IMG/VR virus record: IMGVR_UViG_3300023109_000011
Location: 1 to 64,000 of that record
Direction: 5' to 3' (one strand)
From: a virus
Length of the DNA: 64,000 nucleotides
Shown: piece by piece, positions 28,464-48,626 of the stretch
Position numbering within the stretch: the stretch's first letter is position 1
Layout of the letters: the number at the start of each line of letters is the position of its first letter
Notes under the pieces: model-generated
The model's database searches: none
The model's input: the letters and a program-made list of their open reading frames with translations, nothing else
What the model was told of the DNA's origin: nothing
Made by a program: the position numbers and the translations under genes

Positions 28464-29225
28464 CTAATCCCGTCGTTCGATGTCTTCTTCTGATAACTCG
28501 TCGCCTAGCCATACTTCAATAACTTTGGCAGGTTCTTCGCCTACATTGGTTGCTTTATGCCAAACACCAATTGGAATATCAATGCTTTGGCCTGCCCAAT
28601 AAATGCGAGACTCTTTTCGTTTGGTGGTTTCACCATAGTCGAGCTCCATTAAAATAGCACCTGATACTACATGCCAGTGCTCAGACCTTTTAAAATGTCG
28701 TTGATCGCTAAGTGATCTACCAACATCAAAGCTTAATTCTTTAACAGCCCATGTACAATTTGAATCAAGTACTTTATATGTACCCCATTTGCGTTGAGTC
28801 GTAGGTTGAGCCCATTCTTTTAATATCCAACTACTTGAATTCTTTTTATCTTCACCACCTACTCCGAATGCAAATTCAACATCTTCGAATATCATTTCTG
28901 GAATGTTTTCTTTAGTCCTATCACCACCATTAGCAAATACAATTACTTCGTTTTGATACTTTTCTTTTACTTGACGAATAGCATCAATAGCTGAGTCATC
29001 TGAATCATCAAACGCTATTACCTCATCTACACATGTCATTGCACTTAATATTGCAGCTCTTTCTGACCAAGGCATAAACTCTCTACCCTTTTTACGTCTA
29101 AGCCATTCGTCTGAGTTTACACCGACAACTAAACGAGTACCTTCCAGAGAAGCGTTTTGCAAGTAGGCAATATGTCCACTGTGTATTGGATCAAAGCCTC
29201 CTGTTACAATTACGGTTATCATCAT
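28464..29225 (-). CDS. bifunctional nucleotidyltransferase-cupin protein
   Basis: A 253-residue fusion. Residues 1-130 are an HxGH nucleotidyltransferase (GGFDPIHSGHIAYLQ, HSGH at 15-18; VVGVNSDEW) like those that activate sugar phosphates or polyol phosphates. Residues about 135-250 form a cupin resembling the phosphomannose isomerase type II or GDP-mannose enzyme C-terminal domain (SEHWHVVSGAILMEL, PIGVWHKATNVG). The metal-binding His residues expected in a cupin are present. The start overlaps the preceding gene in an ATGATG junction. The substrate is unknown. It probably makes or edits an activated sugar, together with the neighbouring methyltransferase and glycosidase-like genes. Confidence 0.8.
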   Translation of the reverse strand: MMITVIVTGGFDPIHSGHIAYLQNASLEGTRLVVGVNSDEWLRRKKGREFMPWSERAAILSAMTCVDEVIAFDDSDDSAIDAIRQVKEKYQNEVIVFANGGDRTKENIPEMIFEDVEFAFGVGGEDKKNSSSWILKEWAQPTTQRKWGTYKVLDSNCTWAVKELSFDVGRSLSDQRHFKRSEHWHVVSGAILMELDYGETTKRKESRIYWAGQSIDIPIGVWHKATNVGEEPAKVIEVWLGDELSEEDIERRD

Positions 29226-30457: not shown

Positions 30458-30460
30458 AAT

Positions 30461-31495: not shown

Positions 31496-31542
31496 ATATG
31501 CCTCCATAATAAAAATGCAAATACGTTATAATTTAATGAACT

Positions 31543-31579: not shown

Positions 31580-31912
31580 TTAAGACCAAGGAACCGCGCG
31601 TTGAGTCGTAAATGCCTTGTTGATTTTCTCCATGATCTTGGCATCATATCGAGCCATTTGATCTGAAGTAATAGTAGATTCGAGCCAGCCGATAACCGCT
31701 TCTTCAGTGAGAGCATCAAAGTCTACAAAGTCTCCGCTAGAAACAGCTTCTGCTGACATGATGGTGTACCCAAGGATAGTGGAACTATTATCGAATCCAT
31801 CTATCCCGGTACGTCTCCACCTAATCTTAACAACGGCATTTGAAAGGAGATCCCCATCACCATTAGTCTGGTCTCGGGTACTCATTTTAGTTATTTGCCA
31901 ACTGTATCTCAT
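31580..31912 (-). CDS. small phage protein, paralogue of the next upstream gene
   Basis: A 110-residue protein that shares a clear pattern with the 136-residue protein at 31951: YSWQITKMSTRDQTNGDGD versus YTWSVTGLKKRDQVNADGD, then the A-V-V/Q-x-x-W strand and TEEAVIGWLESTI versus QEEDVLGWIQNVV. A beta-rich front with a C-terminal helix fits a small structural or fibre-associated protein. I recall similar short proteins in marine T4-like phages with no known function. Confidence 0.65.
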   Translation of the reverse strand: MRYSWQITKMSTRDQTNGDGDLLSNAVVKIRWRRTGIDGFDNSSTILGYTIMSAEAVSSGDFVDFDALTEEAVIGWLESTITSDQMARYDAKIMEKINKAFTTQRAVPWS

Positions 31913-31950
31913 ATCAATTCCTATTTAGTTGATATATTGAGTTGGGAGAA

Positions 31951-32361
31951 TTACTCTCCATCATCCGTTGGAGCAGGCTCAAGAGGTGCTGGTGGAACAG
32001 GTGTTACTGGCTCACCGCCCCAAGGCATTTCATGAACTTCTTCTTCTTGCTCTATATCGATTTGATTCATGATACGCTCATCGATGTGCTCTTTGTAAGG
32101 AGGATCGTTATTCACGACATTCTGAATCCAACCTAGAACATCTTCTTCTTGAAGAGATTCAAATGAAGTAAATTCACCAGCTGGAACTGCTGCTGCAGTG
32201 AAAGGAGTTGCACCAGCAAACTCACCTTGCTTTCCGTCGCTGTCTGTTCCAACTACTTTCCAATATGTTTGTACGACTGCTCCTTGGAGCGTGTCACCGT
32301 CTGCGTTAACTTGATCTCGCTTTTTGAGACCAGTAACTGACCATGTATACGTTAATGCCAT
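31951..32361 (-). CDS. small phage protein with Pro-rich tail, paralogue of its neighbour
   Basis: A 136-residue paralogue of the 110-residue protein downstream. Residues 1-105 align along the whole length, and the last 25 residues are an acidic, Pro-rich tail (PVTPVPPAPLEPAPTDDGE) absent from the neighbour. It has an exact late promoter box 41 bases upstream. The pair may form a homo- or hetero-oligomer. Its place between the fibre genes and the enzyme island gives no firm role. Confidence 0.65.
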   Translation of the reverse strand: MALTYTWSVTGLKKRDQVNADGDTLQGAVVQTYWKVVGTDSDGKQGEFAGATPFTAAAVPAGEFTSFESLQEEDVLGWIQNVVNNDPPYKEHIDERIMNQIDIEQEEEVHEMPWGGEPVTPVPPAPLEPAPTDDGE

Positions 32362-32418: not shown

Positions 32419-32604
32419 CTATTTATTAAAAAAAGACTGTTCATCTACATCATGCTTACCAATTGGGCATGTGTTTCCTTTTAGTCTCGCTTTGAGAGTC
32501 ATAATACATTTGCAGACATTGCATTGCCTAAGCTTTGCATTGTACTTTTCACAACTCTCGCATATCTCGATTTTGCGCTGGTATGTTTTTCTATCGACTA
32601 ACAT
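32419..32604 (-). CDS. small zinc-ribbon protein
   Basis: A 61-residue protein with a four-plus-one Cys pattern, CESCEKYNAKLRQCNVCKCI, and a final TCPIGKH. This is the pattern of a small zinc-ribbon family I recall from many phages, in which the segment ends CPIGKW. The start is set at ATG 32604, matching the usual family beginning before a Tyr/Arg-rich helix, although no strong ribosome site is visible. Longer in-frame starts exist at 32619 and 32673. It overlaps the end of the halogenase gene by 14 bases, so translation is probably coupled. Its role is unknown. Confidence 0.7.
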   Translation of the reverse strand: MLVDRKTYQRKIEICESCEKYNAKLRQCNVCKCIMTLKARLKGNTCPIGKHDVDEQSFFNK

Positions 32605-34078
32605 TGGCGCTATAATCATTTTCAAGCAATGCTTGTTGAACAAAGATATGCTTATTTTCTTTGTCGGTATCAAACTGCTTAGCGCAGTGTTCTTTGTTGA
32701 ATGTCATACTATCATACACATCTTTATATATGTCAGATGGTAGCATTCGTATTCCTTGCATCACCTGATACCAAGATGAAGCATTGAAAAAGCGATCAAT
32801 AATGTCAGCAGCACCTAGAGGATACTTAGACCATTTTGCTAAATCTTTTTGTAAACCAGGAGGTGCTTTTTCTACTGAGAATTTATTCCAAAACTCAGTG
32901 TCATTGCGTTCCGTTATATAGTGCAAGTAAACAAAATTATGAATCTCTTTTGAAATATCATTCCACTTTTCGTTAAACTGATCTCGATAAGTATCGTCTA
33001 AGTCAAGTAATAGATTAGGCATAATGATCGACTCAACAATTGACATTGAAGTTGAGAATATCGATGTAGCTTCAAGTGGTTCAATAAATCCAGCAGAAAG
33101 TCCTAATGCAATACAGTTACCTATCCAAGCTTTTTCGTAATAGCCTGATTCAAATTTAAAAACAGTGTCTGGTATTTTAGCGTTAGGAAATTTTTCAAGT
33201 ATTTCCTTTCGAACTTCTTCATCAGAAATAAAGCTGCTATCAAAAGTATATCCACACCCATAACGTTCTTGAGTAGGAATAACCCAGCACCATCCATATT
33301 TCATTGCTATTGATTCTGTATAAGGAGGTAATACATCTTCTTCATGTGGTATAATAAATGGTATTGCACGATCTACGGTTTTATAATCGTTAAAGTCAAT
33401 CCACTTGGGATTCAATTTAGAGATAATAGTTTTTCGAAATCCTGTACAATCATATACTATATCACATTCGTACTCATGATTTTTAGATAATAACTTTTGT
33501 ACTATATCACCATCGAGTACTACATCTTCAATAATATCATCAACTATTTTAATACCACGAGCACCACCTTGTTCTCTTAGAAAGGATGCTAGCATTTTAG
33601 CGTCAAAATGTAATGCAAAAGGTTCGACAATTTCTAAAGCATCATTCTGCATCATAAAAGGATTCTTACGATCTTTACACATCATATACTGTAATGTTGA
33701 TTCAGCAATATGCTCGTCTCGTTTGATTGATTCAAGTATTCGAATAGGAACATAGCTTTGTCTTATATTCGAAGGATGATCATGTAAGTCAGCATTGGAA
33801 TGAAAGATGTGATAATAATCTTCGCCATCACCGTTCCAGTTATCAAAACGAATCGCATGTTTTGTAGTAGCACTACAGAATCTTACTAGAGCCATATAAT
33901 CGATTTGAATCATATCTAATATATCGAGAATGTTAGGTACTGTTCCTTCACCTGCTCCTAACACACCTATTGCTGAGCTTTCAATTACTGTAACTTGACA
34001 ATCAGGTATATATCTTTCAGCAAAGAGTGCTGCAAGCCAACCGGCTGTGCCACCACCCACAATCACAACATTTTTCAT
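32591..34078 (-). CDS. flavin-dependent tryptophan-halogenase-family enzyme
   Basis: A 495-residue protein with the features of the PrnA/RebH family. These are the FAD-binding motif GGGTAGW (8-14), the WxWxIP motif WCWVIP (263-268), the Lys73 equivalent of the catalytic Lys79 of PrnA in TTKHAIRF, and a PLEATS segment with Glu336 at the place of PrnA Glu346. These enzymes use FADH2, oxygen and halide to make hypohalous acid, held near Lys, which halogenates an aromatic ring. A related cyanophage enzyme (VirX1) has been described as a viral halogenase with iodide preference. It overlaps the upstream gene in an ATGA junction. The substrate is unknown: free Trp, a small molecule or a protein residue. 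Confidence 0.9.
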   Translation of the reverse strand: MKNVVIVGGGTAGWLAALFAERYIPDCQVTVIESSAIGVLGAGEGTVPNILDILDMIQIDYMALVRFCSATTKHAIRFDNWNGDGEDYYHIFHSNADLHDHPSNIRQSYVPIRILESIKRDEHIAESTLQYMMCKDRKNPFMMQNDALEIVEPFALHFDAKMLASFLREQGGARGIKIVDDIIEDVVLDGDIVQKLLSKNHEYECDIVYDCTGFRKTIISKLNPKWIDFNDYKTVDRAIPFIIPHEEDVLPPYTESIAMKYGWCWVIPTQERYGCGYTFDSSFISDEEVRKEILEKFPNAKIPDTVFKFESGYYEKAWIGNCIALGLSAGFIEPLEATSIFSTSMSIVESIIMPNLLLDLDDTYRDQFNEKWNDISKEIHNFVYLHYITERNDTEFWNKFSVEKAPPGLQKDLAKWSKYPLGAADIIDRFFNASSWYQVMQGIRMLPSDIYKDVYDSMTFNKEHCAKQFDTDKENKHIFVQQALLENDYSANVSR

Positions 34079-34872
34079 TTATATTCTTTCCTATGCCAAA
34101 ACCAAGTCTTATATCTATTACGGCTTAATGTACCTTCGATCAGTTTGTCTGATTTTGTGAATTCAATGTTTTGTTCTGGTGTCATTATATGCTGGACTTC
34201 ATGCGTCCACTTTTCTCGTTTGAAAGGTATAATTTGAACCATAGGACTGCCACCTTTAATAATGAACTCGTCGCCAGGTTTACATTTCAACATAGCTGGA
34301 AATAAGATATTCGTCTGATAAACGTCAGTGTCAACTACACCAGATTGTACTTCCCACTTATCAATCCCTTGGTGTTGAGGATGTAAGAACATGCAAGAAA
34401 TACCGGGAGGTGTTTTCATAACCCAAGGATTAATAAACTTATAAACCTTATCTGCGCTATAACCTTGTTTCCAATAGGGATGCTCAGACGTTTGTGATCG
34501 AGCATGAAATCCAATTGGTTCATGACCATCTAATTCTTTTACACCGGTATGTATGCCTATAACTTCTTCACCAGAATCTGGATCTATTATACATTTAACT
34601 GCAATATCATAGGGGAAAGGAATGATATATCCACTCGTCATCATTTCACGAAATGGAATGCATCTTTTAACTGTAGGAGTATAAGCAGGCCGGATACTAT
34701 CTTCGACGAAGACGTGAGTTTTGGATTCTCTACCCGAGTAAGGTTTTTGATTCTTAAACCATTCAGGTATAAATTTCATCGCAGGCGCTGGCTCGTGAGC
34801 CATAGGTCCTAGATTTGAAGTGAAGGTCACTTCGTTTTTTCTTGTTAGCCAAGATTTCAAAAGACTAAACAT
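34075..34872 (-). CDS. unknown protein coupled to the halogenase gene
   Basis: Start at ATG 34872 with GGAG six bases upstream, rather than the earlier ATG 34884, giving 265 residues. The protein is soluble, with many aromatic and Pro residues. Phrases include NLGPMAHEPAPAMKFIPEWF, TPPGISCMFLHPQHQGID and SGVVDTDVYQTNILFPAML. I have the impression of a family that occurs in phages and bacteria, but it has no known activity. The HPQHQG and VDTD patterns could be a metal or 2-oxoglutarate-type site, which is speculative. Translational coupling with the halogenase suggests that the two work on the same substrate. Confidence 0.7.
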   Translation of the reverse strand: MFSLLKSWLTRKNEVTFTSNLGPMAHEPAPAMKFIPEWFKNQKPYSGRESKTHVFVEDSIRPAYTPTVKRCIPFREMMTSGYIIPFPYDIAVKCIIDPDSGEEVIGIHTGVKELDGHEPIGFHARSQTSEHPYWKQGYSADKVYKFINPWVMKTPPGISCMFLHPQHQGIDKWEVQSGVVDTDVYQTNILFPAMLKCKPGDEFIIKGGSPMVQIIPFKREKWTHEVQHIMTPEQNIEFTKSDKLIEGTLSRNRYKTWFWHRKEYK

Positions 34873-34888
34873 AATATACTCCAAAAAA

Positions 34889-35269
34889 TTAGGTTGGTAC
34901 TATAGATTCCCCGCCTGATACGGTATTAATATCTATATTACCATTCAACCAATTATCTAGCATGACTTCAAGAGGTCCGGTCGTTTCATGAGCACCAAGT
35001 GCTTCCCACATTCTATAACCGTTTTCAAAATTTAATATTGAAGGAACAACAGGAGGCGCACATAAAGGAAGGGTAAGATCATCTGCTTCGAGCTTACAAA
35101 AATTAATGCCTGGATAATCGGCTACTATATTTTCAATTGCTTCTTCCCATGCAGCACAACCAGCACAGCCGGGATTAACCAGCATGACCGAATCTAATAT
35201 AAGAGTAGAACGATCTTCAGGGCCTCGTTTAGCCAGCAATTCTTCTGCAGTAACATAGGGTAAAGCCAT
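34889..35269 (-). CDS. thioredoxin-like protein with CAGC motif
   Basis: A 126-residue protein with a thioredoxin-like pattern: beta strand LILDSVMLV, active-site-like Cys35-Ala-Gly-Cys38 after NPG, helix AAWEEAIENIVADYPGINFC, and cis-Pro-like VVPSIL (Pro76). The motif CAGC differs from the usual CGPC. A C-terminal helix carries LEVMLDNWL. It may be a redox partner or disulfide reductase for nearby enzymes, or a structural copy. It lies between the Cys-rich protein and the halogenase partner gene, with gaps of about 12 and 16 bases. Confidence 0.7.
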   Translation of the reverse strand: MALPYVTAEELLAKRGPEDRSTLILDSVMLVNPGCAGCAAWEEAIENIVADYPGINFCKLEADDLTLPLCAPPVVPSILNFENGYRMWEALGAHETTGPLEVMLDNWLNGNIDINTVSGGESIVPT

Positions 35270-35281
35270 AATATTTCCTTT

Positions 35282-35833
35282 TTATGTATAACCATTAGAG
35301 GTTGCTGTTACGCCATTATAATAGCATCTATTCACTGATACTTTCATATACGCATTACCACCACAACCATAATCTTTTTCCATGAAAAACATCCAAGCGC
35401 CATCGTAGTGAAAGACACCGACTCTACCGTTTTGGTTATTAGGATTCACGTTATTATTGTTTGTGCGACCTTCATAACTAAAACCACCCGGGCAATTAGC
35501 TGGAGTTCTGTAATTTGCGCTATTCGAGTTCCAATTCCAACACGGCCCATTTCCAATTTGAGCGGTGTTATTATAGAGTCTCCGAGTTGACGTATAACCG
35601 TACGTGCTAGTCCCTAAGTTGTATTGTCTGCCATCACCATATACCCGTCCACCTGAATCTTGAAATTCGTTCCATATTGAATATCTTTCGGCGGCAGTTT
35701 GTTCACCTAAAAACATATTGCTACTGTCTGTATTATAAACAATACACCAGCGATAACGCTCAGGTCTGTTGCCATCATTGCCTGGCCCGTATCGACTAAG
35801 ATAACGTTGACCTGATGGTAATACTCTGCTCAT
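35282..35833 (-). CDS. Cys/Trp/Asn-rich protein of unknown function
   Basis: A 183-residue protein with no signal peptide, very rich in Asn, Gly, Tyr, Trp and Cys. Examples are YRWCIVYNTDSSNMF, GPCWNWNSNSANYR, ANCPGGFSYEG and HYDGAWMFFMEKDYGCGG. The five cysteines and repeated aromatic-glycine patterns suggest a compact, disulfide-stabilised beta fold such as a lectin- or adhesin-like tip. It lies between the sulfotransferase and the thioredoxin-like gene. It could be a virion tip protein or even the substrate of the nearby halogenase or sulfotransferase. Both ideas are inference. I recognise no family. Confidence 0.65.
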   Translation of the reverse strand: MSRVLPSGQRYLSRYGPGNDGNRPERYRWCIVYNTDSSNMFLGEQTAAERYSIWNEFQDSGGRVYGDGRQYNLGTSTYGYTSTRRLYNNTAQIGNGPCWNWNSNSANYRTPANCPGGFSYEGRTNNNNVNPNNQNGRVGVFHYDGAWMFFMEKDYGCGGNAYMKVSVNRCYYNGVTATSNGYT

Positions 35834-35842
35834 TTTATTCCT

Positions 35843-36628
35843 CTACAATATGTTAAACTGAGAATATTTTGTAAACAAATCGTCGCCTAATACTTTTCTT
35901 GGATCTTGAGATATTTTCTCAATTTTAGGACGAACAACGTGAAGATCTTTTATTCCCCAGTTTTCATCCGGCTCCTCGAGGTATGTTTGTACATTTTCAA
36001 AATCATGTTTTGGAGGATCAAGTTCAAGATACTCCCATATATCGTTCATAGTTTGTTCTGTATTATTTATAAGATCATCGTAATTTACAATATGAACTAA
36101 ATGCGGAAACCTATCAATTGCGCCTTTACAACTTTCATAGCCATAGTCTTTAAAATTATTCCATATTTGCTCAGTGCGATTCTCAGTATTAATTTTTATG
36201 TTTTCTTTAAAAAGCTGAACGTCAACGTGGTTCTTAGGATCTTTATCCATTAAGGTAATAAACGACGTTAAAATGTCAGGAATAGGTCTATAGGTAACTA
36301 TTACTTTTGGTGTTGGGTTAATAAATGCTTCTATAGCTTGTATATTATAACCCCATCCTCGGCTTTTGTCAACTATATACTTCTTTTTTACCGGTGAGTA
36401 CCAACCTTCAAACATATACTTAAATATGCGCTGATTCATTTCATCCATGTCCCAGTCACCGCGATATCCATTTTCTTGCAACACACCATATAGATCATGC
36501 ATAACACGGTTCAACGGACTGGTCGCAGAGACATAAAATTCTGGATGCTGGGAAAGCAAGGAACCGAGTAAAGTAGATCCGGTCCTTGGCATTCCCGTAA
36601 GATAAAAATACCGACTCATATCAAACAT
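35843..36628 (-). CDS. PAPS-dependent sulfotransferase
   Basis: A 261-residue protein of the sulfotransferase superfamily. The 5'-phosphosulfate-binding loop is TGMPRTGST (11-19). KVIVTYRPIPDILTSF matches the second conserved region, which contacts the 3'-phosphate. The helix-strand order fits the family. Such enzymes move sulfate from PAPS to hydroxyls or amines of sugars, lipids or tyrosines. The start at 36628 has GAAGGG seven bases upstream. It follows the giant fibre gene by three bases, so it is in the same operon. Possible targets are fibre tyrosines, a surface glycan or a host metabolite. Confidence 0.85.
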   Translation of the reverse strand: MFDMSRYFYLTGMPRTGSTLLGSLLSQHPEFYVSATSPLNRVMHDLYGVLQENGYRGDWDMDEMNQRIFKYMFEGWYSPVKKKYIVDKSRGWGYNIQAIEAFINPTPKVIVTYRPIPDILTSFITLMDKDPKNHVDVQLFKENIKINTENRTEQIWNNFKDYGYESCKGAIDRFPHLVHIVNYDDLINNTEQTMNDIWEYLELDPPKHDFENVQTYLEEPDENWGIKDLHVVRPKIEKISQDPRKVLGDDLFTKYSQFNIL

Positions 36629-36631: not shown

Positions 36632-39600
36632 TTAACCCTTCAATAGTTGTTGTACCATTCCTTTCAATTCTTCAATTTGGTTGGCTTGACTATCGATTTG
36701 CTCTTGTTGTTCTTTAACTGCTTCAACTAAGAGACCAACCAGGTGTCCGTATTCAATAGAAAGAACATCTTCAATACCATCGTTATGAGCTGGTTTAGAT
36801 GCCGGTGCATTTGGATCATCACTTGTATTATCAGACGTGTCTTGTACAACAACAACTTCTGGAATAACTTCTTGAACTTCCTGAGCAATAAGACCAATAT
36901 CCTTATCACCCGAGTCTTTCCAGTTATATTCAACACCGCGAAGTTTCTTAACTTTATCTACAGCGTTTTCAATAGTAACAATATTCTCTTTTAGCCTTTC
37001 ATCAGAAGAGTAGAAGAAGCCTTGAGCCTGAATACCATTTGTACGAGTACGAAGTTTTTCAGAACCGTCGTGGTAAAGAATACAGTAAGAGTTGAGATCG
37101 AATCTCATCATCCATTCGTTATTAACGTCGTTGTACATACCAGCAACGCCGCCATTGTTGTGCATCATTACAACACGATCACCAATCGAGAATCCTTCGT
37201 ATCCGCCGCGTGACGCGCCATCAACACAGAATGAACCATAGTTACCATCAGGTGATCTTAATACAACACCATCATTCAGAGTAATACGACCCATTCGAGA
37301 AGTATTCTCTGTTCCTCGAATGTCAATTAACATGGCGGTGTTACTTCTGTAATATCGAAGACCGTTATCCTGAACAGTAGCATTGACATACATTGTTCCA
37401 CCTACATACCAGTTAATATATGTAGAATATCCAGACCTTGAATCTAAATGTAAGTTACCATTAGTTGTTGCAACAGAAGCATAAGAACCAGTCCAATGTC
37501 CGTTACCACCAACATACAGATATTGTCCCCAAGATGGGTTAGGTCCATGTAATGTACCACCTCGAATACGAAGGGCAGAGTTACTTGTTGAGTTAGGATC
37601 TAAGTAGTAGCCAGTATCGTTCCAATCATAATAAATTGGAGTACGAACATCAGAACTGAATACCGCTCTACTTGATATAGCAGCTCTAAATGAACCATTG
37701 TTAATAATCAACATACCATGGTCATTCAGTTGATTCGCACCACCTAGTCCACCAGCATTTGGATGTGACCAACCAATACCGTACATATTTGCAGCAGAGG
37801 TACCAGCAGAGTTCGGTCTATAAGAGGAACCCATTGCGAATACTAATTGTAATCTTGTAGAAGTATATGTTCCGGTTACACCTAATCCATAATTGTTAAA
37901 TGTGTGATAACCGTTTTGATTAGTGGTATTGATTATAGAAGTACTCGCCGGATCGATATAATAACCAGTATTATTAGTATCGTAATACCGGCCTGCATAC
38001 ATTGAACCACCGTTACCATTGTTTTCATCAAGTACCGGAATTGTTCTCCAAGTTCTCCAACCACCCCATGCACTTCTGAATCGTAAGTTGGTAATTGGTC
38101 CACCAACCATCTGCCAGCCATAACCACTTGTGTTAGAACTACGATAGTGATATGATTGAATGCCAACCCAGTGAGAAGTACCTGAAGGCTGGTTGCCTGG
38201 ATTAGACCAAGAATCAATAAAGCCTGAACCCCAAGTACTAACAACGTTCATGTCCTGGGTTCCCCAACCCATTGCACCAGTCCAATAGTTGGTATCTGAT
38301 GTTATTCGAGGACGTGCTCTATAGTACTCACCACTATTACGCGTATGGCCAGGCTGATTGATCCAAGCCATCGTACGGTTGTTAACACCTTCAAATCTTG
38401 TGCTGTGACCAGATGCTGGATCAATGTAGTAACCACTATTGTTTGAATCGTAGAAGATAGTACCGTAAATAGCACCATCACTACCAAAGTACTTGCTACC
38501 GTTCCAGTAGTTTTCTTTCAGAATGGCTCGGCCATTCATGTACATTTCATTTACGTTAAAGTAGAAGTTACTACGATCGGTGTAAATGTGTGCGTGAGAA
38601 CCGTTAGCCGGACCAAACTCGATGTATCCATAAGGAGTCTGGTGTCTCCATCCCCAAGAACCGCCATGTAAGTAGTATCCACTGTTTCCGTAATCAATAC
38701 TTGACAGTCGACTTCTTCCTGCTGGATCACAGAAGTAGTTCGAGTTATTTGAATCATAGAAGATATCAGCGTAAAGACCACCGGTGTTATTGCTGTTTTC
38801 TCCCATTACTGGAATTGTACGCCAAGTTCTAAATGATGACCAAGTACTACGGAATCTTAAGTTAGTAACTGGTCCACCAACCATCTGCCAACCATATCGA
38901 GCTGAACCATTAGTATAGTGGTATGCCTGCATTCCAACCCAGTGAGATGTACCTGAAGGCTGGTTGCCTGGATTACTCCAAGAATCAATAAAGCCTGAAC
39001 CCCAGTCGGCAACCGTGTTCATGTCAACACGGCTCCAACCCATTGCGCCGGTCCAGTAGTTCGTGTCACCTGTAATACGAGGACGTGCTTTGTAGTATTC
39101 AGCACTTGATCTTGTTTGACCAGATAGTGCCTGGAATGCCATTGTTAAGTTATCTACACCACGGAATCTTGAACTATTATCTGAAGCACCATTCCAACGA
39201 TAACCAGTATCATCTAAATCATAGAAGAGTGGAGCACGAGCAGAACCACGCATGACTGTATAGCCATAAGTAAATTCATTATAACTTCCATTCCAATAGT
39301 ATATCCAACCACGACTATTGTCGTGTATACCTACGTTATCGCCGCCAGTTGACATGAACACGTGGCGAGAACCGATACCCCAACCTGACCAGCCGTTTCG
39401 ACCAGTATTATATGTAGTTACGTTACCGTAAGAGTTACCACCTGCTTCTGGAGCCCACATTCCCTTTCCATAATCTTGGAAGTAGAATCCAGTACTGCCT
39501 TGAGCACGGAACCAGTTATTAGCGAGAACGTAGTGGAACTGAGACGTTGAATTAAAGTTTCCGTAATATCCAGTGTTGTCACGATCATAGAAAATCGGAG

Positions 39601-42600
39601 CTCGAATATCTGAGATGTGATCTAAGTAGTCAGTATTAATTCTGCTGTATGTCGTGTTTTGATAACGAACATCGAGCATTGTAGTGTTGTCAGAACTAAT
39701 TGAGTCACTATCAATAACAGTTCTTGCTTGCAATCTAATGTAGTCTGAAGAACCTAGACCATCGTTTTCAGAACCAATAACCATGGCTCCATTTTCACCA
39801 GTGTTATCATAGTCTGGATCATATGTAATGTAACCAAAGTCAGAAGGTGCATTAACACCTGAACGGAAGTAGAGTGATACCGGTTGATCGTTACCTGAGT
39901 GGAATTCAGCAGCAACATTACCCATGTACTCGGCAAGTCGCCCGCCGGCGTAAGCGGCTGATCCACCTGAATCACCTTCTCGACCTATGAACTGAGTACG
40001 ACCATAGAACTCAACTCGCTGTAATCTGGATGTACCATTAGGATCGAGATAACGACCTGTGTTATTAGTATCATAGAAGATTGGAGCACGGAATGATCCA
40101 AACGTACTAACATAACCAAGAGAGTTATTAATGTAGCCGTCGTATGCTAAGTACCATGCTTGTGTTGGGTAACTATCATTACCACCGATTGCTGCATACC
40201 AGCTTGATCTTCCACCGCCCCATCCACTTGCATACTTATAAAGTCCAGTGTTAACATGAGTGCGATAACCAGAACTATAAAGAGCAGTCTGGTGAGTAAG
40301 TGGTAAGTAACGACTTGTTCCACCGACATTGTAATCTCTATTACGAGTAGAAATTGGAGCGTTAGTCAATCCACTGATTGATGTTGACCAGTAATCTGTC
40401 GGATCATTAGCGTAGAATTGACCATTAGATGTTAATGTACTAACAACTTCTAATGTATTAAGTCTTGTATTTGAACGAGGATCAGTGTAGTAAGCACTAT
40501 CATTATAGTCATACATGATTGGAACATCAAGACGACCACTTATTAAGACCTGACCGTTACCACGAATAATTTGGTTCCAAGATCCACCGAATCCACCATC
40601 ACGGAAGATAATGTCTTCGTTACCTGACGTTGCAAATTCGAAGTGAGAATCATCAGACTCAGTTGCACGAATATATCCACGTAAGTTACCTGAACTTGTA
40701 TAGAAGTAAGCAGGTGCACCACCAAGATAGTTAATTCGATCTACACTCAGTGTATTCATTCTCGATGTTGAGTTAGGATCTGCGTAGTAGTTCGTGTTAT
40801 CACTATCATAGTAACGTTTTGCGTACATATCCCCAGTGTTAATATTCTGGTTGTATGTTGCAGTTACCTTCATCACTATCGTACGTTCTTTAGTACGACC
40901 TCCAGGCAGGCTAGAGTTTGTAATGTTAGTTACAAGGTTACGATCATCACCACCTGCGTCTCGTACGTGCACCGAGAAAGAGTTCCAGTAAGAAACACGT
41001 GGCCACCAGAAATGTAGTGTTCCGTTATATTGGAACACTTGCATGTCAGCAAAGCCAGGCTTACCAAAGTGCTGTCCAGAATAGTTGATAATAGTATCGT
41101 AGTACAAGTAACCCTGAGCAGTAAAGCTAAATGGTGGATCACCCGAGTAAGACTTACCTGTTGCTTCAAGTACGAACGAAGCACCGCTAGTTGCCGTCGC
41201 AGGAATACTTGTTGATACTAACGTACCTAATGTAAAGTCAGAACCTGAATGTCTATAAGTTCTTACATAATTTCCGCGGAGACGCAGATCATACAACTCA
41301 GATGTATTATCACCATGTATGTAGTAGTTTGTATTATTTCGATCATAGAAAATTGGAGCTCTAAACGAGTTTTCAGTATACACCTGTCGGTCATTTTGGA
41401 TCCACATAATGGAAACGTTATTACCGCTACTCCAACCACGACCAATACCATAGTGTGGGTTTGTTTGGTTAGGTGAATAACCGAAGTGTAATGATGTTGC
41501 ATTAGTACCAGCAATACCAATTACCCAATGCTTAAAGTTACCTGAAGAAGCATTTGCACTATCGTAAGCAGCAAATCTTAATGTTGGACCGTGAGTACCA
41601 TTACTAATCTGAGTCGACATAAGATTCAACTGAGGATACTGGCCTTTAATAACCAGATCCGGCCTGTTGAGCGCTGAGCCTTCCAAGATTCCGTTATATA
41701 AATTAGTTTCGTCACCAATATGTAATCTATGAACTATACGCTGTTGTAAGAATCTTGAAGTAGCATTTGGATTAGCATAGTAAGCAGTATCTTGGATGTC
41801 ATAGAATATCTGAGCTCTTGCGTCTCCAGCCATAACATATAAGTTACTACTTTCAACACGAGTGTGTGTATCACCTCGACCGACAGAGAATAGCAGAGAA
41901 CTTAAATCTTCGTTGTTGTAGAAACGAGTACCACCGTAGACTGCCTGAGCACCCATACGAATACCTGTATGCCACCTTAGATCAAGCTTGGTGTAGTTGC
42001 CACCGTAGTTTTCCATGTTGGTGCCGATGAAATAATTGCCTGCAGCATTACTATCACCACCACCAAACATTAACCTTGCACCAGTGGTGCTACTGTATGG
42101 GTTGTTTTGGAATGTACCACCAATTACAACTTGACCAGCAGTTCGCATACTATTAATTCGCGATTCTGCGTGAGGATTCGTGTAGTAAGCAGTGTCATCA
42201 GTATCGTAGAAAATTGGAGCTCTTACACTTGCAGCCGATTCAATAATACCTTGAGCATCAATACGATCGAGTGCGCGGATATCATCTGCTAACAAATTAG
42301 ATTCAGCATTACGTCGCTTAAGCATAATACCACCGTATTGGCGAAGAGCGCCACCGGCATTATAGTTCATTAAGATACGAATTCTTACATAGTAACAACC
42401 ACCGCCGTCTGAACCATTATAAGGTGTATGTGATGATGGTATTGTTGTATGACCACGTTGTGTCTGCCAACTAGTGTTCGTAAAATTGCTACCGCCAGAT
42501 ACGAAGTATGTTGTACCTGTGTTACCAGCAATAGCTCTCTTCTGACTATCAAATCTTTCAATACCGTAGTATAATAAACCACCTGAGCCTGAAATTAGTT

Positions 42601-45600
42601 TATGGGAAATCTCACCATAAATCTCTTCACCTGGGGCAACAGGAATATAATCAGAGTAGAATGTTCTATAAGCGGCCGATTGAAGAACATATGATCCAGC
42701 AAATGGACCGTCTGTTGTTCTTACAAATTCTGATGTCGTACCTGTAAGAGCGCTTTCGTTATCTGCCATTGGCTTAATAACACGCTTGTCAAAGTATTCT
42801 GTAGCATCAAATAGTACTAAGTCTGCTCCACCTGAACCGTATGACTTAATAAGACCAATGTTTTCGTTTCCACCATTTAGTAAGAAGTTACCAGCAGAAA
42901 CATTACCGATGAAGTGTGCATTACCGTTATCAAGGTCAATACTTGCTCTTAATTGACCTGAACCTACAAATACAATCTCATTTGGATTAGAAGTACTAAA
43001 GTGTGAATAAGCAGGATTATCATTACCAGCCCAGAAGATACCCCAGTTGCTAGCTGTTTGCCAGATCCAGTGAGTATAATCTTGAGCTCTTAATAGAACA
43101 TTATTACTGCCATTGCCCGAAGTTTGGAATCCTAATCTATCGTAAATGCCATTGACGCGAACGGCCGTGCTTGTGTTTCCACTTGCAAAGTTTCCATAAT
43201 AGTTCGTGTCATTTGAATCATAATAGATTGGTGCTCGCATTTGGTTATTAGCGAGGAAATAACCATTTTCTGTTTCAGCCTGTTTTGTGCCATTAAAGTG
43301 AAGCTCAGTAGATCCACCACGACGCCAGATTGTCATCCATTCATTGTCGATGTCATTGTAGATGCCGGCCTCATCAGCACTGCTTGACATGAATACAAAT
43401 CTGTCAGCAATAGAATAACCTTGCCATCCACCTTTACCACTACCATGAACAGACATTGAACCGTAATTACCGCCCGGCCAATCCATGTAAGTATCAGTAC
43501 TATTATCGTATGCAAAATAAATTCGGTTTGTTCTCAGCGTAGCAAGACGAGAAGTACTGTTTGGATCCACAAAATAGTTAGTGTCATTTCGATCATAGAA
43601 GAGCGGTGCTCGCATATCGCCAGTAACCTGAAGGATACCTGACGCTGCAGTAAAGAACATTCGAGCGGCACCAGAGCCGTAACCAACGTTACCCCATTCA
43701 AATTCTTGTGCATCAGATGCTAGTGTGCCTGATGTTCTATTGTATAAACGAGACTGCCAAGAACCATAATTTGTAGTACTTACACCGAAGTAAATATTGG
43801 TAGCGCCGCGTACTGCAACAGGGCCAGCAATATCTAAAGTAGCATTAGTTACAATACTCGATGTCGAGCCTACCGTTAGTTGATTAAGTACTGAACGGCT
43901 AGCGAAGTCACCATAGTATGCAGTGTTATTGCTGTCATAGAATATTGGTGCTCTAACGTCGCTATAATGACTCAAGTAATCAGTATTGATTATTGCAAGC
44001 TCAGTCAGTGCTGATCCATTCTTACGATAGAATCTAAAGTCACCACCATATTCCATAAATGAAATTCTATCAAGCAGAGCATATCCGGTTGTAGCATTAG
44101 TTGGATAACCTCTAAAGATGATACCGTGGTATTCATCATTGTGACCGTTTAATAAGCCATAAGATCCATTTGAAATAGTAAGTCTGTTAAGTCTATTATC
44201 AGCAAGTCCACTTCCATTAGGATTTAAACGATATGTGGTATCGTCCATATCGTAGAAGACTTGAGTCGTTATTTGTGATGACTTAAATTTCTCGTAACCA
44301 GTTCCTGGGTTATTTCTTATTGCGATCGTACCATCTGATTCAATAGCAATGTTCGATGCTACAACACCACCCCAATGGAATCCAAGATAAGGAGGAGTTG
44401 CTGCTCCTGTTGCTGTGTAATTACTTTCTCTTAATTCGATTGAAGCAGTAGAATAACCTGTGCCTGTTGAAGATGAAGCAAACTCAAAGTTGCCGAGTAG
44501 TTTAGCACCGTCGCCAGGTTCAATGTAATATGCTGTAGAATTAGAATCATAGTAACGAGGTGCATAAACATTGACTGCAAAGTCTGCAGAATTATTATCG
44601 ATGTTGAAGCGCTGGGTGCCGTTTGTCCAAATTCTAAATGTATCGTTTGCTTCAAAACCAAAGAATGTATTTGTATCACCACGATGACGAATGTAGTCGT
44701 CGATGTCGATACGATTCATCTGAGATGTGCCAGCAAAGTCACCATAATAGTTTACATCATCTGAATCATAAACTATACTAAAGTATGCAGAGCCGGTCGA
44801 GTATAATGCTTTGTTATTTCGTACGCGGAGGTACGTGGCATCGGTCATATACCAACCGCCGCCCCATCCGAATCCTAATTCTTCGTCTTTCAGGAATGAA
44901 GATGTACCACGTCCAAATACAATAGCATCATCATTACCATTAAGTTGAATACCACCATTGACATGTAGTTTGCTATTTGTTATACTACCAACTAATGGAG
45001 TATTATCCATTGAGGTGTATGTTACAGAAGAACCGCCAACTATGACGTTATTATTAGTTTCCTCAGCAACAAGAATTTCACCACCACCGGTATCCCAGAA
45101 TCCTGCGGTTGTACCTGCTGGTGGAACAATGTAGAAGTTTCCGCTTGAGTCACCTCTAAACTGAGTTCCGTTAGCACCATCATGGTAGAAATTAATGTAT
45201 CGATTACCGTTAGCATAAGGATTGGCGCTAGCATCGATAATGTTCATGTACATCAATGCGTATCCACCGGCCGAGTTACCACTAATTCCTACCGTGGTAT
45301 TTTGACCAGAAGCATATGAACCGTGGTTCATTAACGAGATGCCACCGTTGCCTGTGCTATCATCCCATCTTGCAGCATCGGAGACATTACCGATTAACAC
45401 CTTACCATTCAATGTGGCAGCGGTGTCTGTAGAAGCAGGATCTACAAAGTAAGCGCCATCGCTTCGATCGACAAATCTATTTGCAAGTAAGTCGCTAAAG
45501 ACTGTTGTATTTGTGTTGGTAATGTTTACACGTTCGACATTATCAGTAACAAAAGTAATACTATCATCGGCATCAAAACCTAGATAAGTAGTCGTGTCAC

Positions 45601-48586
45601 CGCGGTGTCGCATGTAAGTATCAATAGCAAGAGCTGACAATTGTGATGTGCCAGCAAAGTCACCATAATAAAGAGTATCGTTTTGATCGTAGAAAGCAGG
45701 TGAACGCATTTGGTTATTTGCTAAGACATAACCATTTTGAACTCTTAATCTTTCTGCACCACCTGTAACAACTGCAAATTGGTCAGCTGCTGGGAAATGA
45801 ATGTAAGTATTAGTATCTCCATCGTGAATAATCTCACCAACTAAACTAATATCATTTACACGAGATGTACTCGCTGGATCCATGTAGTAAGTAGCATTGC
45901 TACTATCGTAATATCTTCCAGCATATAGATTTGGGAAAATACCATCAAGACTTGAAGTGACGTAAGTCGTATCAATTAAAAGTCTTTCAGTACCATCAGT
46001 TGCAAATCGTATATTATTATTCGATGGGAATCCGAGATAGGTAGTTGTATTACCACGATGTCTTACATAATCATCAATGTCTACAGTATTTAATTGTGAG
46101 TCACCAGCAGGGTCTGCAAAATAATTAGTATCATCAGCATCAACAAATCTCGCTGCAGTAACATCGCCTGTAAATGTACCACTACCACCTGAAACGTCTC
46201 CACCAAAGTCACCATCACCAGTAACATCAAGGTCACCGGTAATATCTACACCAGCATCATTAACTTCTAATCTTTGAGCACCACCGGTTTGAACTTCCCA
46301 ACGATTTGCGCCTGGGAAATTAAGGAACGTGTCGGTATCACCATCGTGAACAACGGTTCCTGTCATTGTAATTGTATTTACGCGAGAGCCAGAAGCTGGA
46401 TCTAAATAGAAGGTAGCATCGTTGCCATCGTAGAAAATAGGTGCTGTAACACTTACCGTTGAATCAAATGCTACTTTAGCTGATATGCTTGCGTTACTAA
46501 TATACAAACGCTCAGCACCACCAGTGGCTAATCGTATTTGATCAGCACCAACAAACCCGAAGTAAGTATCCGTATCGCCATTGTGACGAATATAAGAATC
46601 AAGGTCAATTTGACTCATTACGGAGGTACCATGGAAGTCTCCGTAATAGTTGTTATCGTTTGAATCGTAGAAGACTGGTGCATAAACATTTACAGTAAAG
46701 TCTGCACTATTATTATCTACACTGTATCGAAGAGTACCGCCGGTGTATACTCCGAAAGTATCAGCAGATGGGAATGTAATATAAGTGTCTGCATCACCGT
46801 TGTGACTAATAGAACCTTCCAATGCGATTCCATTAATTACAGATGTACCAGCAAAATCTCCATAGAAGCTACGATTATCTGAATCATAGTAAACAGGTGC
46901 TTGTACTTCTGTAAGTGCAGTGATGTAATCACCGGTGATACTATTTGAAGCACTCAGATTCGTTACAAATATTCCACTGGTGTTTGCAGTTAATTGAGTA
47001 GAGCCACCAGCATCTACACCAATAGAGTCAGCACCAAATGTGACCTTTGTATCGACATCATTGTTATGAATGATAGCATCGTTAACAACGAGATTAGGAA
47101 CATACGTATCAAGGTTAGCTAAGACTCTTGTGTTGTTAATATCTAACTGTGTATTTCCACCAGTCTGTAAAAGAATATTGTCTGTTTCAAAACTTAATCT
47201 TGTATCTGTATCGCCGTTATGGAAAAGATTATCATCAATTCCAATAGCGTGCATTGTTGAATCTGCATTTGGATTTACCACATAACTATTATTGTCTGCA
47301 TCTATAAATCGTTGACCAATAACATCTGTTCCAGCCGATACAGTAGTACCAGCCGATACAGTAGTACCAGCTGTTACTGAACCGAGTGTTGCTTCAATAT
47401 TACCGGCCGAAGCTGTAATGTTACCCGCGGTTGCGGTTATGTCTACACCTGCAGTTACATCAGTCGTAGCAATTACGTCCCGACCTGCGCTTACGTCTCG
47501 CCCTACAACCCAGTCATCATCACTGGTCGATCGAGCTGCATAGTTAAACGATGCATTTAAGAAACCAATAGTACCAGTTGTTGAGTATATTGCTCGATCT
47601 TGTCCAGATCCATTAAATACGATCTGCGCAGGACCACCATCATCCCCGATAGTAAGGTCGCCTTCAATGGTTATATTACCTGTGGCTGTATCATCTGCGT
47701 CACTACGAAGGAACTGAGAGGCTTCTAAGCCATCGACAGTGTCTGCATCAAAGCCATTTCCTGAGCCTTCATCAGCAGTCGTAATGATTCGACCTAAGTC
47801 TAGAAGCGAGCCGTTTCCTGCAAGCGAAATAAGTTTCCAGTAATCTGTACTCTCGTCCCATAGAATTTTTGGATTGTTTAAAGTACCACGCTCAATTTCA
47901 ATACCACTATTTTCTGATGGGCTTGAACCTGTGTAATTACTATTAAGAGTAATAATATTATCAGCAAGTAAAATTTCTTCTGTATTAACAGTAGTTGTTG
48001 TACCTGAAACAGTAAGGTTACCGCTGACCGTAAGACTCTGTTGAATGGTATAGTTACCAGCCATGATGTCATCGACATCAGAACGAACGAGTTGAATTCC
48101 TTCAAGACCATCAACAGTATCTGCATCAAACCCATTTCCTGAGCCTTCATCAGCAGTTGTAATAATACGATTGTTATCAATGGTGGTGGTTGCTAATCCG
48201 TAGAATCGGTTACCCGAAGAACTGATTGCAAGCCGAGGAGAGTTGTTATAGAGTATACGAACACCAGGTGTGGAGTCGTAGAATATGATTCCGTTGTTTT
48301 GCTGAGAGTTGACAAGTTTATAGTCGCCTGTACCCGAGTTGAGAATCTGGAGTGAATCAGAGTCTCCTACAAATTCTGCGATAGGTGGGGAAAACAAACT
48401 GCCGGCACTATTAGTAACTTTTAATGATGGAGTGCTAAAATCGTTTTGATCGATTACCACTTCACCCGAGAACTTAGATTCTCCAGTTACCTGTAGTTTT
48501 TGCCCGTTGTCGGTGGTTGTTCCAATGACAACGTTTTGCGACGTTTGTAGTCCATTTTTGACTATAAACTTTTTATCATTTGCCAT
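36632..48586 (-). CDS. giant tail fibre protein with S74 C-terminal chaperone
   Basis: A 3984-residue protein. The start is ATG 48586 with GGGGAGAG eight bases upstream, not the GTG at 48595. About 26 copies of a motif like IFYDSNNTAYYGDF or RYYDPNSTSRLN-type repeats run along it, with inserted domains in between. The N-terminal region has LQVTG and TVSGNLTVSG modules shared with the next fibre gene. The last 125 residues resemble a peptidase S74 domain (SSDERLKENIVTIENAVDKV, with candidate catalytic Ser3861) followed by a coiled coil. Such domains fold fibre trimers and then cut themselves off. It is probably a long receptor-binding fibre. An unbroken frame of nearly 12 kb argues for active selection. 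Confidence 0.93.
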   Translation of the reverse strand: MANDKKFIVKNGLQTSQNVVIGTTTDNGQKLQVTGESKFSGEVVIDQNDFSTPSLKVTNSAGSLFSPPIAEFVGDSDSLQILNSGTGDYKLVNSQQNNGIIFYDSTPGVRILYNNSPRLAISSSGNRFYGLATTTIDNNRIITTADEGSGNGFDADTVDGLEGIQLVRSDVDDIMAGNYTIQQSLTVSGNLTVSGTTTTVNTEEILLADNIITLNSNYTGSSPSENSGIEIERGTLNNPKILWDESTDYWKLISLAGNGSLLDLGRIITTADEGSGNGFDADTVDGLEASQFLRSDADDTATGNITIEGDLTIGDDGGPAQIVFNGSGQDRAIYSTTGTIGFLNASFNYAARSTSDDDWVVGRDVSAGRDVIATTDVTAGVDITATAGNITASAGNIEATLGSVTAGTTVSAGTTVSAGTDVIGQRFIDADNNSYVVNPNADSTMHAIGIDDNLFHNGDTDTRLSFETDNILLQTGGNTQLDINNTRVLANLDTYVPNLVVNDAIIHNNDVDTKVTFGADSIGVDAGGSTQLTANTSGIFVTNLSASNSITGDYITALTEVQAPVYYDSDNRSFYGDFAGTSVINGIALEGSISHNGDADTYITFPSADTFGVYTGGTLRYSVDNNSADFTVNVYAPVFYDSNDNNYYGDFHGTSVMSQIDLDSYIRHNGDTDTYFGFVGADQIRLATGGAERLYISNASISAKVAFDSTVSVTAPIFYDGNDATFYLDPASGSRVNTITMTGTVVHDGDTDTFLNFPGANRWEVQTGGAQRLEVNDAGVDITGDLDVTGDGDFGGDVSGGSGTFTGDVTAARFVDADDTNYFADPAGDSQLNTVDIDDYVRHRGNTTTYLGFPSNNNIRFATDGTERLLIDTTYVTSSLDGIFPNLYAGRYYDSSNATYYMDPASTSRVNDISLVGEIIHDGDTNTYIHFPAADQFAVVTGGAERLRVQNGYVLANNQMRSPAFYDQNDTLYYGDFAGTSQLSALAIDTYMRHRGDTTTYLGFDADDSITFVTDNVERVNITNTNTTVFSDLLANRFVDRSDGAYFVDPASTDTAATLNGKVLIGNVSDAARWDDSTGNGGISLMNHGSYASGQNTTVGISGNSAGGYALMYMNIIDASANPYANGNRYINFYHDGANGTQFRGDSSGNFYIVPPAGTTAGFWDTGGGEILVAEETNNNVIVGGSSVTYTSMDNTPLVGSITNSKLHVNGGIQLNGNDDAIVFGRGTSSFLKDEELGFGWGGGWYMTDATYLRVRNNKALYSTGSAYFSIVYDSDDVNYYGDFAGTSQMNRIDIDDYIRHRGDTNTFFGFEANDTFRIWTNGTQRFNIDNNSADFAVNVYAPRYYDSNSTAYYIEPGDGAKLLGNFEFASSSTGTGYSTASIELRESNYTATGAATPPYLGFHWGGVVASNIAIESDGTIAIRNNPGTGYEKFKSSQITTQVFYDMDDTTYRLNPNGSGLADNRLNRLTISNGSYGLLNGHNDEYHGIIFRGYPTNATTGYALLDRISFMEYGGDFRFYRKNGSALTELAIINTDYLSHYSDVRAPIFYDSNNTAYYGDFASRSVLNQLTVGSTSSIVTNATLDIAGPVAVRGATNIYFGVSTTNYGSWQSRLYNRTSGTLASDAQEFEWGNVGYGSGAARMFFTAASGILQVTGDMRAPLFYDRNDTNYFVDPNSTSRLATLRTNRIYFAYDNSTDTYMDWPGGNYGSMSVHGSGKGGWQGYSIADRFVFMSSSADEAGIYNDIDNEWMTIWRRGGSTELHFNGTKQAETENGYFLANNQMRAPIYYDSNDTNYYGNFASGNTSTAVRVNGIYDRLGFQTSGNGSNNVLLRAQDYTHWIWQTASNWGIFWAGNDNPAYSHFSTSNPNEIVFVGSGQLRASIDLDNGNAHFIGNVSAGNFLLNGGNENIGLIKSYGSGGADLVLFDATEYFDKRVIKPMADNESALTGTTSEFVRTTDGPFAGSYVLQSAAYRTFYSDYIPVAPGEEIYGEISHKLISGSGGLLYYGIERFDSQKRAIAGNTGTTYFVSGGSNFTNTSWQTQRGHTTIPSSHTPYNGSDGGGCYYVRIRILMNYNAGGALRQYGGIMLKRRNAESNLLADDIRALDRIDAQGIIESAASVRAPIFYDTDDTAYYTNPHAESRINSMRTAGQVVIGGTFQNNPYSSTTGARLMFGGGDSNAAGNYFIGTNMENYGGNYTKLDLRWHTGIRMGAQAVYGGTRFYNNEDLSSLLFSVGRGDTHTRVESSNLYVMAGDARAQIFYDIQDTAYYANPNATSRFLQQRIVHRLHIGDETNLYNGILEGSALNRPDLVIKGQYPQLNLMSTQISNGTHGPTLRFAAYDSANASSGNFKHWVIGIAGTNATSLHFGYSPNQTNPHYGIGRGWSSGNNVSIMWIQNDRQVYTENSFRAPIFYDRNNTNYYIHGDNTSELYDLRLRGNYVRTYRHSGSDFTLGTLVSTSIPATATSGASFVLEATGKSYSGDPPFSFTAQGYLYYDTIINYSGQHFGKPGFADMQVFQYNGTLHFWWPRVSYWNSFSVHVRDAGGDDRNLVTNITNSSLPGGRTKERTIVMKVTATYNQNINTGDMYAKRYYDSDNTNYYADPNSTSRMNTLSVDRINYLGGAPAYFYTSSGNLRGYIRATESDDSHFEFATSGNEDIIFRDGGFGGSWNQIIRGNGQVLISGRLDVPIMYDYNDSAYYTDPRSNTRLNTLEVVSTLTSNGQFYANDPTDYWSTSISGLTNAPISTRNRDYNVGGTSRYLPLTHQTALYSSGYRTHVNTGLYKYASGWGGGRSSWYAAIGGNDSYPTQAWYLAYDGYINNSLGYVSTFGSFRAPIFYDTNNTGRYLDPNGTSRLQRVEFYGRTQFIGREGDSGGSAAYAGGRLAEYMGNVAAEFHSGNDQPVSLYFRSGVNAPSDFGYITYDPDYDNTGENGAMVIGSENDGLGSSDYIRLQARTVIDSDSISSDNTTMLDVRYQNTTYSRINTDYLDHISDIRAPIFYDRDNTGYYGNFNSTSQFHYVLANNWFRAQGSTGFYFQDYGKGMWAPEAGGNSYGNVTTYNTGRNGWSGWGIGSRHVFMSTGGDNVGIHDNSRGWIYYWNGSYNEFTYGYTVMRGSARAPLFYDLDDTGYRWNGASDNSSRFRGVDNLTMAFQALSGQTRSSAEYYKARPRITGDTNYWTGAMGWSRVDMNTVADWGSGFIDSWSNPGNQPSGTSHWVGMQAYHYTNGSARYGWQMVGGPVTNLRFRSTWSSFRTWRTIPVMGENSNNTGGLYADIFYDSNNSNYFCDPAGRSRLSSIDYGNSGYYLHGGSWGWRHQTPYGYIEFGPANGSHAHIYTDRSNFYFNVNEMYMNGRAILKENYWNGSKYFGSDGAIYGTIFYDSNNSGYYIDPASGHSTRFEGVNNRTMAWINQPGHTRNSGEYYRARPRITSDTNYWTGAMGWGTQDMNVVSTWGSGFIDSWSNPGNQPSGTSHWVGIQSYHYRSSNTSGYGWQMVGGPITNLRFRSAWGGWRTWRTIPVLDENNGNGGSMYAGRYYDTNNTGYYIDPASTSIINTTNQNGYHTFNNYGLGVTGTYTSTRLQLVFAMGSSYRPNSAGTSAANMYGIGWSHPNAGGLGGANQLNDHGMLIINNGSFRAAISSRAVFSSDVRTPIYYDWNDTGYYLDPNSTSNSALRIRGGTLHGPNPSWGQYLYVGGNGHWTGSYASVATTNGNLHLDSRSGYSTYINWYVGGTMYVNATVQDNGLRYYRSNTAMLIDIRGTENTSRMGRITLNDGVVLRSPDGNYGSFCVDGASRGGYEGFSIGDRVVMMHNNGGVAGMYNDVNNEWMMRFDLNSYCILYHDGSEKLRTRTNGIQAQGFFYSSDERLKENIVTIENAVDKVKKLRGVEYNWKDSGDKDIGLIAQEVQEVIPEVVVVQDTSDNTSDDPNAPASKPAHNDGIEDVLSIEYGHLVGLLVEAVKEQQEQIDSQANQIEELKGMVQQLLKG
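38036..38405 (-). repeat. duplicated knob-like domain, copy 1, in the giant fibre
   Basis: Encodes a segment with ARPRITSDTNYWTGAMGW, SGFIDSWSNPGNQPSGTSHW and RFRSAWGGWRTWRTIPV. It is nearly identical in DNA and protein to the segment at 38813-39175, about 780 bases away. The WRTWRTI ending resembles knob domains of phage fibres. Confidence 0.8.
38813..39175 (-). repeat. duplicated knob-like domain, copy 2, in the giant fibre
   Basis: The second copy, with ARPRITGDTNYWTGAMGW and RFRSTWSSFRTWRTIPV. Long runs of identical bases with copy 1 show a recent tandem duplication or gene conversion. Confidence 0.8.
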
Positions 48587-48626
48587 ACGGTTCACTCTCC
48601 CCAGATTGGCGGTTTAAATTATTCAA

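Follow-up and report, generated by a model that had tools for sequence, protein, structure and literature searches.

A halogenase and a partner of predicted dUTPase-like fold behind a giant tail fibre gene: a composite locus in a myovirus and a possible virion-modification cassette

The stretch of DNA analysed here (the window, 64,000 nucleotides) comprises positions 1 to 64,000 of the IMG/VR virus record IMGVR_UViG_3300023109_000011, a 98,112-base record of a virus that is a myovirus by its gene content (major head, portal, tail sheath and terminase genes). Behind a giant tail fibre gene it carries a run of six genes, among them a flavin-dependent halogenase gene and the gene for a 269-amino-acid protein of the PHROGs family phrog_7084 (hereafter P7084), and these two recur together in other phages. 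According to the list of open reading frames (ORFs), the six genes and the fibre gene are all on the minus strand and tightly packed, in the following order:

36632..48595, minus strand: giant tail fibre, 3,987 amino acids, with an S74 domain (PF13884); presumed head of the transcript and candidate target
35843..36628, minus strand: sulfotransferase (Sulfotransfer_3), 261 amino acids; PF13469, expectation value (E) 2.7e-17
35282..35833, minus strand: 183-amino-acid protein rich in Cys, Trp, Tyr and Asn, probable fibre-tip or adhesin protein; one homologue, in Vibrio phage Va2
34889..35269, minus strand: thioredoxin-like protein with a CAGC motif, probable folding helper of the 183-amino-acid protein; weak thioredoxin/phosducin matches and a Va2 homologue
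34075..34884, minus strand: P7084, 269 amino acids, predicted dUTPase fold, partner of phage halogenases; phrog_7084, E 2.6e-47
32591..34078, minus strand: flavin-dependent halogenase, 495 amino acids; PF04820, E 3.2e-101
32419..32673, minus strand: small Zn-ribbon-like Cys protein; phrog_13558, E 1e-12

The fibre gene lies upstream and is separated from the sulfotransferase gene by 3 bases. The next three gaps, from the sulfotransferase gene to the 183-amino-acid gene, from there to the thioredoxin-like gene, and on to the P7084 gene, measure 9, 12 and 4 bases, and the P7084 and halogenase genes overlap by 4 bases. With its listed TTG start, the Zn-ribbon gene overlaps the halogenase gene by 83 bases; a start at one of the in-frame Met codons further on would reduce the overlap to about 14-29. 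As the sulfotransferase, P7084, halogenase and Zn-ribbon proteins match their families at the E-values given, these four are not chance ORFs, and the reality of the 183-amino-acid and thioredoxin-like ORFs is supported by their homologues in Va2. A nearly identical second copy, contig L010, has the halogenase/Zn-ribbon end of the locus. The original prediction of six genes in this order, closely packed on one strand, was thus borne out by the ORF coordinates, the Pfam and PHROGs matches and the Va2 homologues.

When the syn9 homologue of P7084 was used as the query, 15 phage records with a syn9-type P7084 were found, and 14 of these 15 also carried a halogenase, including Syn10, the source of the halogenase VirX1. 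Halogenase and P7084 genes were adjacent in all six genomes examined in detail (syn9, S-RIM44, P-TIM40, S-CREM1, Sf-FP1 and Sf-FR1). Among environmental viral halogenases, P7084 was present within the retrieved flanks of 23 out of 81 (directly adjacent in 7), as compared with 0 of 80 bacterial ones (Fisher p 4e-8; such P-values overstate the association because the counts come from related genomes). The pairing spans separate clades of the halogenase tree: that of syn9, S-RIM44 and P-TIM40; that of L081, L082 and L093; and that of the window, L053 and L055. The Zn-ribbon gene adjoins P7084 in L011, L081, L082 and L093, lies beside a 2-oxoglutarate (2OG) oxygenase gene in P-RSM1, and follows the adhesin tip gene, behind the halogenase, in S-SRM01. 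The best-supported unit is halogenase plus P7084, joined by the Zn-ribbon gene and elsewhere by 2OG-oxygenase genes, and it often lies behind fibre genes. No 2OG-oxygenase (phrog_81) was found in the contig of the window, which is incomplete.

To characterize P7084, an alignment of 24 members, 23 of them from viral contigs, was used for an AlphaFold 2 (AF2) model (pLDDT 77). The 50 best Foldseek matches of this model in the PDB were dUTPases plus one dCTP deaminase (best E 3.4e-3, probability ~1), and every row shown by VIA-align 2 was a dUTPase (Z 8.7, rmsd 3.0 over 115 residues). P7084 is thus predicted from its model to have a dUTPase-like (beta-clip) fold. By sequence alignment, the window protein has a motif-III-like GVVDTD and its relatives have GIVDPRY-type motifs, with D185 nearly invariant; this Asp may correspond to the catalytic Asp of motif III in the dUTPase superfamily, with which P7084 shares the predicted fold. 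However, the RSS motif of dUTPases (motif II) is absent from the window protein and nearly all members, P7084 has 269 residues as compared with about 120-160, and it is a partner of halogenases. As the RSS motif is missing, we do not call P7084 a dUTPase. The DUF6065 profile (PF19541) did not match the window protein and matched 2 of its 24 relatives weakly (best E 0.005), suggesting that DUF6065 is a distant relative at most. DUF6065 was found in 108 of 150 genomes from the alphaproteobacterial order to which Caulobacter belongs, and at the single locus examined (L206, 8161-8907) the gene is not beside a halogenase. P7084 relatives are also widespread in haloarchaeal tailed viruses of the HF2 group; one (L006, 5860-6744) has a ribonucleotide reductase gene in its vicinity, and the stretch examined contains no halogenase. 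A genome scan with a single P7084 protein gave no match.

The halogenase scores 340 bits against PF04820 (cut-off 21), and its motifs are intact in the alignment columns: GGGTAGW, the invariant K73, WCWVIP, EPLE and E333/E336. The roles of the GxGxxG, catalytic Lys, WxWxIP and EPLE residues are established for PrnA, RebH and VirX1. The window enzyme matches the VirX1 structure 6qgm at E 8e-41 and belongs to the same enzyme family as VirX1 and the other cyanophage tryptophan halogenases (PrnA, T4-GC 212), and the halogenases of Syn10 and syn9 adjoin the same P7084 family; unlike the VirX1-type enzymes, it falls into another halogenase clade, together with those of L053 and L055. The bacterial relatives of this halogenase are metabolic enzymes. 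Cyanophage halogenases have been described as auxiliary metabolic genes, with protection against antibiotics as a speculation (PMC2984593, PMC9964418, PMC10452541). In vitro, the Syn10 enzyme VirX1 accepts many small aromatics; its active site is open and its preferred halide is iodide, and the review that reports this does not state its natural substrate (PMC8407142). For a cluster in S-SSM6a, Iyer et al. (2021) predicted a halogenated secondary metabolite or capsule decoration (PMC7824862). The S-SSM6a/S-SSM7 cluster belongs to T4-like cyanophages and resembles the present one in that 2OG oxygenases accompany the halogenase, but it contains carbamoyltransferases and sugar genes, and the S-SSM7 stretch examined has neither P7084 nor an adjacent fibre gene. 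The phage-halogenase papers examined, from the openly accessible literature to which our search was confined, do not describe the halogenase-P7084 pairing or a fibre substrate or context.

A place behind fibres is seen repeatedly, in one lineage of cyanophages and in a few further phages. In the six cyanophages named above, a fibre or other large structural gene is followed by Gly-rich adhesin or fibre-assembly genes, a small conserved gene, the halogenase(s), P7084 and 2OG-oxygenases; the large gene is about 10-12 kb in S-RIM44, Sf-FP1 and Sf-FR1, the P-TIM40 stretch examined holds only fibre-assembly genes at the fibre slot, and the large gene of S-CREM1 is annotated as a lyase. S-WAM1 and P-RSM6 have the halogenase in the same place without P7084. 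In S-SRM01, the halogenase lies between the fibre and a Cys/Trp-rich annotated adhesin tip, and in the actinophage DSL-LC01 a giant gene is followed by collagen-like genes and then the halogenase. Mapping the fibre label onto the halogenase tree required at least 4 changes, with fibre-linked halogenases in several clades. Among the genomes examined, fibre linkage was found in 7 of 7 with halogenase and P7084 and in 4 of 13 without P7084, where the labels were assigned by us, the related genomes are not independent, and the absence of P7084 in the 13 was judged over whole records or over the examined stretches alone. In the window, the fibre (6.6% Tyr, 1.7% Trp) has a C-terminal S74 self-cleaving chaperone domain (36851-37006, PF13884, E 4e-21), and its C-terminus has homology to the Va2 fibre and the distal fibre of S-SRM01. 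In S-SRM01 and L053, the cassette is flanked by surface proteins that are rich in Cys and Trp but unrelated in sequence; the one in L053 (4859-5770) is a 303-amino-acid Cys/Tyr/Trp-rich protein with two CPSGG..SG..C repeats, encoded 6 bases upstream of the Zn-ribbon gene in a cassette that reads Zn-ribbon, 2OG-oxygenase, two P7084 genes, halogenase and 2OG-oxygenase.

The 183-amino-acid protein (Y 9.8%, N 14.2%, W 2.7%, C 2.7%) matches no Pfam or PHROGs family. Among 50,697 phage records, one relative pair was found for it and the thioredoxin-like protein, in Vibrio phage Va2, where the two homologues are adjacent and directly behind a fibre whose S74-type domain is homologous to that of the window fibre; no halogenase was present in the 24 kb examined around them. 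The Va2 homologue of the 183-amino-acid protein is 29% identical to it and shares four Cys (C98, C114, C157 and C170). The thioredoxin-like protein has CAGC at 35-38 and VPS (cis-Pro) at 75-77, which align with CQSC and IPS in its Va2 homologue, itself annotated as thioredoxin; phmmer gave E 4e-4 to phosducin and 5e-3 to thioredoxin, with Pfam matches below the cut-off. Pattern scans of viral contigs for further relatives of either protein gave nothing usable, a 34-residue match in L009, an unrelated tail-region contig, was probably due to chance, and an AF2 model of the 183-amino-acid protein alone was unusable (pLDDT 30). The conserved Cys residues in one protein and the CxxC and cis-Pro in its partner suggest a disulfide-bonded fibre-tip protein with a dedicated folding helper, and it is more likely that the pair has these roles than that the 183-amino-acid protein is a substrate of the halogenase. 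Its gene resembles the T4 gp38-type adhesin tip genes in lying close behind a large distal fibre gene (directly in Va2, after one sulfotransferase gene in the window), and the annotated tip of S-SRM01, which is Cys/Trp-rich and beside a halogenase, has a similar gp38-type placement. It differs from gp38-type tips in matching no tip family of Pfam or PHROGs and in having, as in Va2, its own thioredoxin-like gene.

The sulfotransferase has relatives in the cyanophages S-SRM01, where it is among sugar genes, and S-SKS1. A P-loop-like stretch of the window protein, PRTGSTLLGSLLSQHP, aligns with the tyrosylprotein sulfotransferase TPST1, but the best match has an E of only 0.6, and the phage relative lies among sugar genes. 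A sulfotransferase was found near a halogenase at three loci: the window, L052 and L072. In L072, the last sulfotransferase gene overlaps the halogenase gene and a Gly-rich adhesin-like ORF lies upstream, forming an independent sulfotransferase and halogenase cassette; the whole run (2755-11407) comprises this adhesin-like ORF, a carbamoyltransferase-like ORF, several 2OG-oxygenase-like ORFs, two sulfotransferases and the halogenase.

These distributions bear on whether the six genes form one unit, as had been proposed. The halogenase does sit in a recurring multi-gene cassette, behind giant fibre and adhesin genes in several cyanophages, and the formerly "unknown" gene (P7084) and the Zn-ribbon gene proved to be repeat partners of it across viral loci. 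The halogenase/P7084 core of the joint unit therefore survives, but its strong form fails, as the genes are scattered in relatives and the sulfotransferase is only an occasional companion. The Cys/Trp-rich gene is no regular companion of the halogenase: it was found in 0 of the 81 viral halogenase loci. We reject a six-gene island inherited as a single unit; the locus is a composite of the core, the Zn-ribbon gene, the 183-amino-acid/thioredoxin-like pair and the sulfotransferase.

Directly downstream of the locus (31580-32361), the window carries a tandem pair of DUF7936 genes whose products are 35% identical to each other. In eight cyanophages, a small gene of a family without Pfam match (135-221 amino acids; L015, 5484-5978) immediately precedes the halogenase; the DUF7936 genes are probably not its homologues, given the lack of a Pfam match and the unlike alignments. 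Next in the window (28464-31507) come a nucleotidyltransferase fused to a mannose-6-phosphate-isomerase-like cupin, a weak glycosyltransferase match and a 348-amino-acid orphan. In the marine virus AG-345-O18 (L018, 4838-7422), the halogenase gene shares 4 bases with the end of nrdB, which encodes the small subunit of ribonucleotide reductase.

A virion-modification cassette around halogenase and P7084 is the best single reading of these sequences, although we hold it at a little less than even. In its favour are the intact halogenase motifs, the pairing with P7084 in several halogenase clades, the gene order shared by the six cyanophages, the fibre-linked halogenases of S-WAM1, P-RSM6, S-SRM01 and DSL-LC01, the four or more changes of the fibre label on the tree, and the Cys/Trp-rich surface proteins beside the cassette in S-SRM01 and L053. 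On this reading, the cassette, which lies among the late, structural genes, would be expressed with the fibre genes; the halogenase, using host-supplied reduced flavin and halide, would halogenate Trp or Tyr side chains at the surface of fibre, adhesin or tip proteins; P7084 would not act as a dUTPase but would present the substrate or serve as an accessory, and the Zn-ribbon protein would be a small accessory; and in cyanophages the 2OG-Fe oxygenases in the same slot would hydroxylate the same targets. In the present phage, the sulfotransferase would have joined the cassette, and in the separate pair encoded between fibre and halogenase, the thioredoxin would help to form disulfides of the Cys-rich tip-like protein. 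A more specific and clearly more doubtful proposal is that, as the virion is assembled, a fibre-linked halogenase and its dUTPase-fold partner serve to halogenate aromatic residues in the phage's own fibre and adhesin proteins (with hydroxylation or sulfation as further marks), so that some "metabolic" phage halogenases would be virion-maturation enzymes.

Several points weigh against virion modification. A large or collagen-like ORF lies within 10 kb of the halogenase in only about 13 of 82 loci, for which reason fibre linkage was rejected as a general property of phage halogenases, and other phage halogenases are found in regions of ribonucleotide reductase, psbA, DNA-repair or sugar genes. 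For most of the known wild-type enzymes of the family, the substrate is free Trp or a small aromatic; accessory genes accumulate in late T4-like regions, and the predicted fold of P7084 hints at nucleotides rather than proteins. The cassette might instead make or tailor a small molecule during infection (a halogenated amino acid or peptide serving as antibiotic, toxin or signal), the fibre neighbourhood being incidental. The use of free Trp by known Trp halogenases, the small aromatics taken by VirX1, the metabolic bacterial relatives and the prediction for S-SSM6a all favour this; yet no peptide synthetase, carrier or exporter was seen among the cassette genes examined in the window, syn9, S-RIM44, P-TIM40 and S-CREM1, and the repeated placement behind fibres would be left unexplained. 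We regard this reading as unlikely. About as unlikely is the decoration of a glycan, of the virion or of the host surface, with sulfate and other groups, in concert with the sugar genes that follow the cassette. Glycans lack the electron-rich aromatics that halogenases of this family require, and P7084 and the Zn-ribbon gene accompany halogenases where no sugar genes were seen, even though the sugar-related genes in the window, the setting of the S-SRM01 sulfotransferase and the carbamoyltransferase/sugar cluster around the S-SSM7 halogenase are in line with it.

That P7084 is a nucleotide enzyme, with the halogenase and 2OG oxygenases acting on nucleotides or nucleic-acid bases, seems distinctly improbable. 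The fold with its motif-III-like Asp, the P7084 relatives near ribonucleotide reductase genes in HF2 and S-RIM4 and the nrdB overlap in AG-345-O18 agree with such a role, but nearly all members lack the RSS motif, most cassettes lie in structural regions, and two divergent P7084 copies can occur in one cassette (L053, L082 and L093), which would be odd for a housekeeping hydrolase. We give the same low weight to the notion that there is no joint function and that a late-region hotspot gathered unrelated accessory genes: the separate distributions of sulfotransferase, 183-amino-acid/thioredoxin-like pair and halogenase core and the lack of fibre linkage in most environmental halogenases would fit, whereas it would account neither for the pairing of halogenase and P7084, which recurs in different halogenase clades, nor for the gene order that six cyanophages share.

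Phage halogenases have so far been treated as stray metabolic genes, with VirX1 as a valued biocatalyst. With a conserved partner gene and a recurrent position behind the fibre, concrete and testable substrate candidates are at hand, namely the fibre and adhesin proteins. The occurrence of cassette parts beside fibre genes in distantly related phages suggests that phages may chemically decorate their own attachment proteins; if this is true, protein modification would gain a new kind, the halogenation of virion proteins, and host recognition a new factor.

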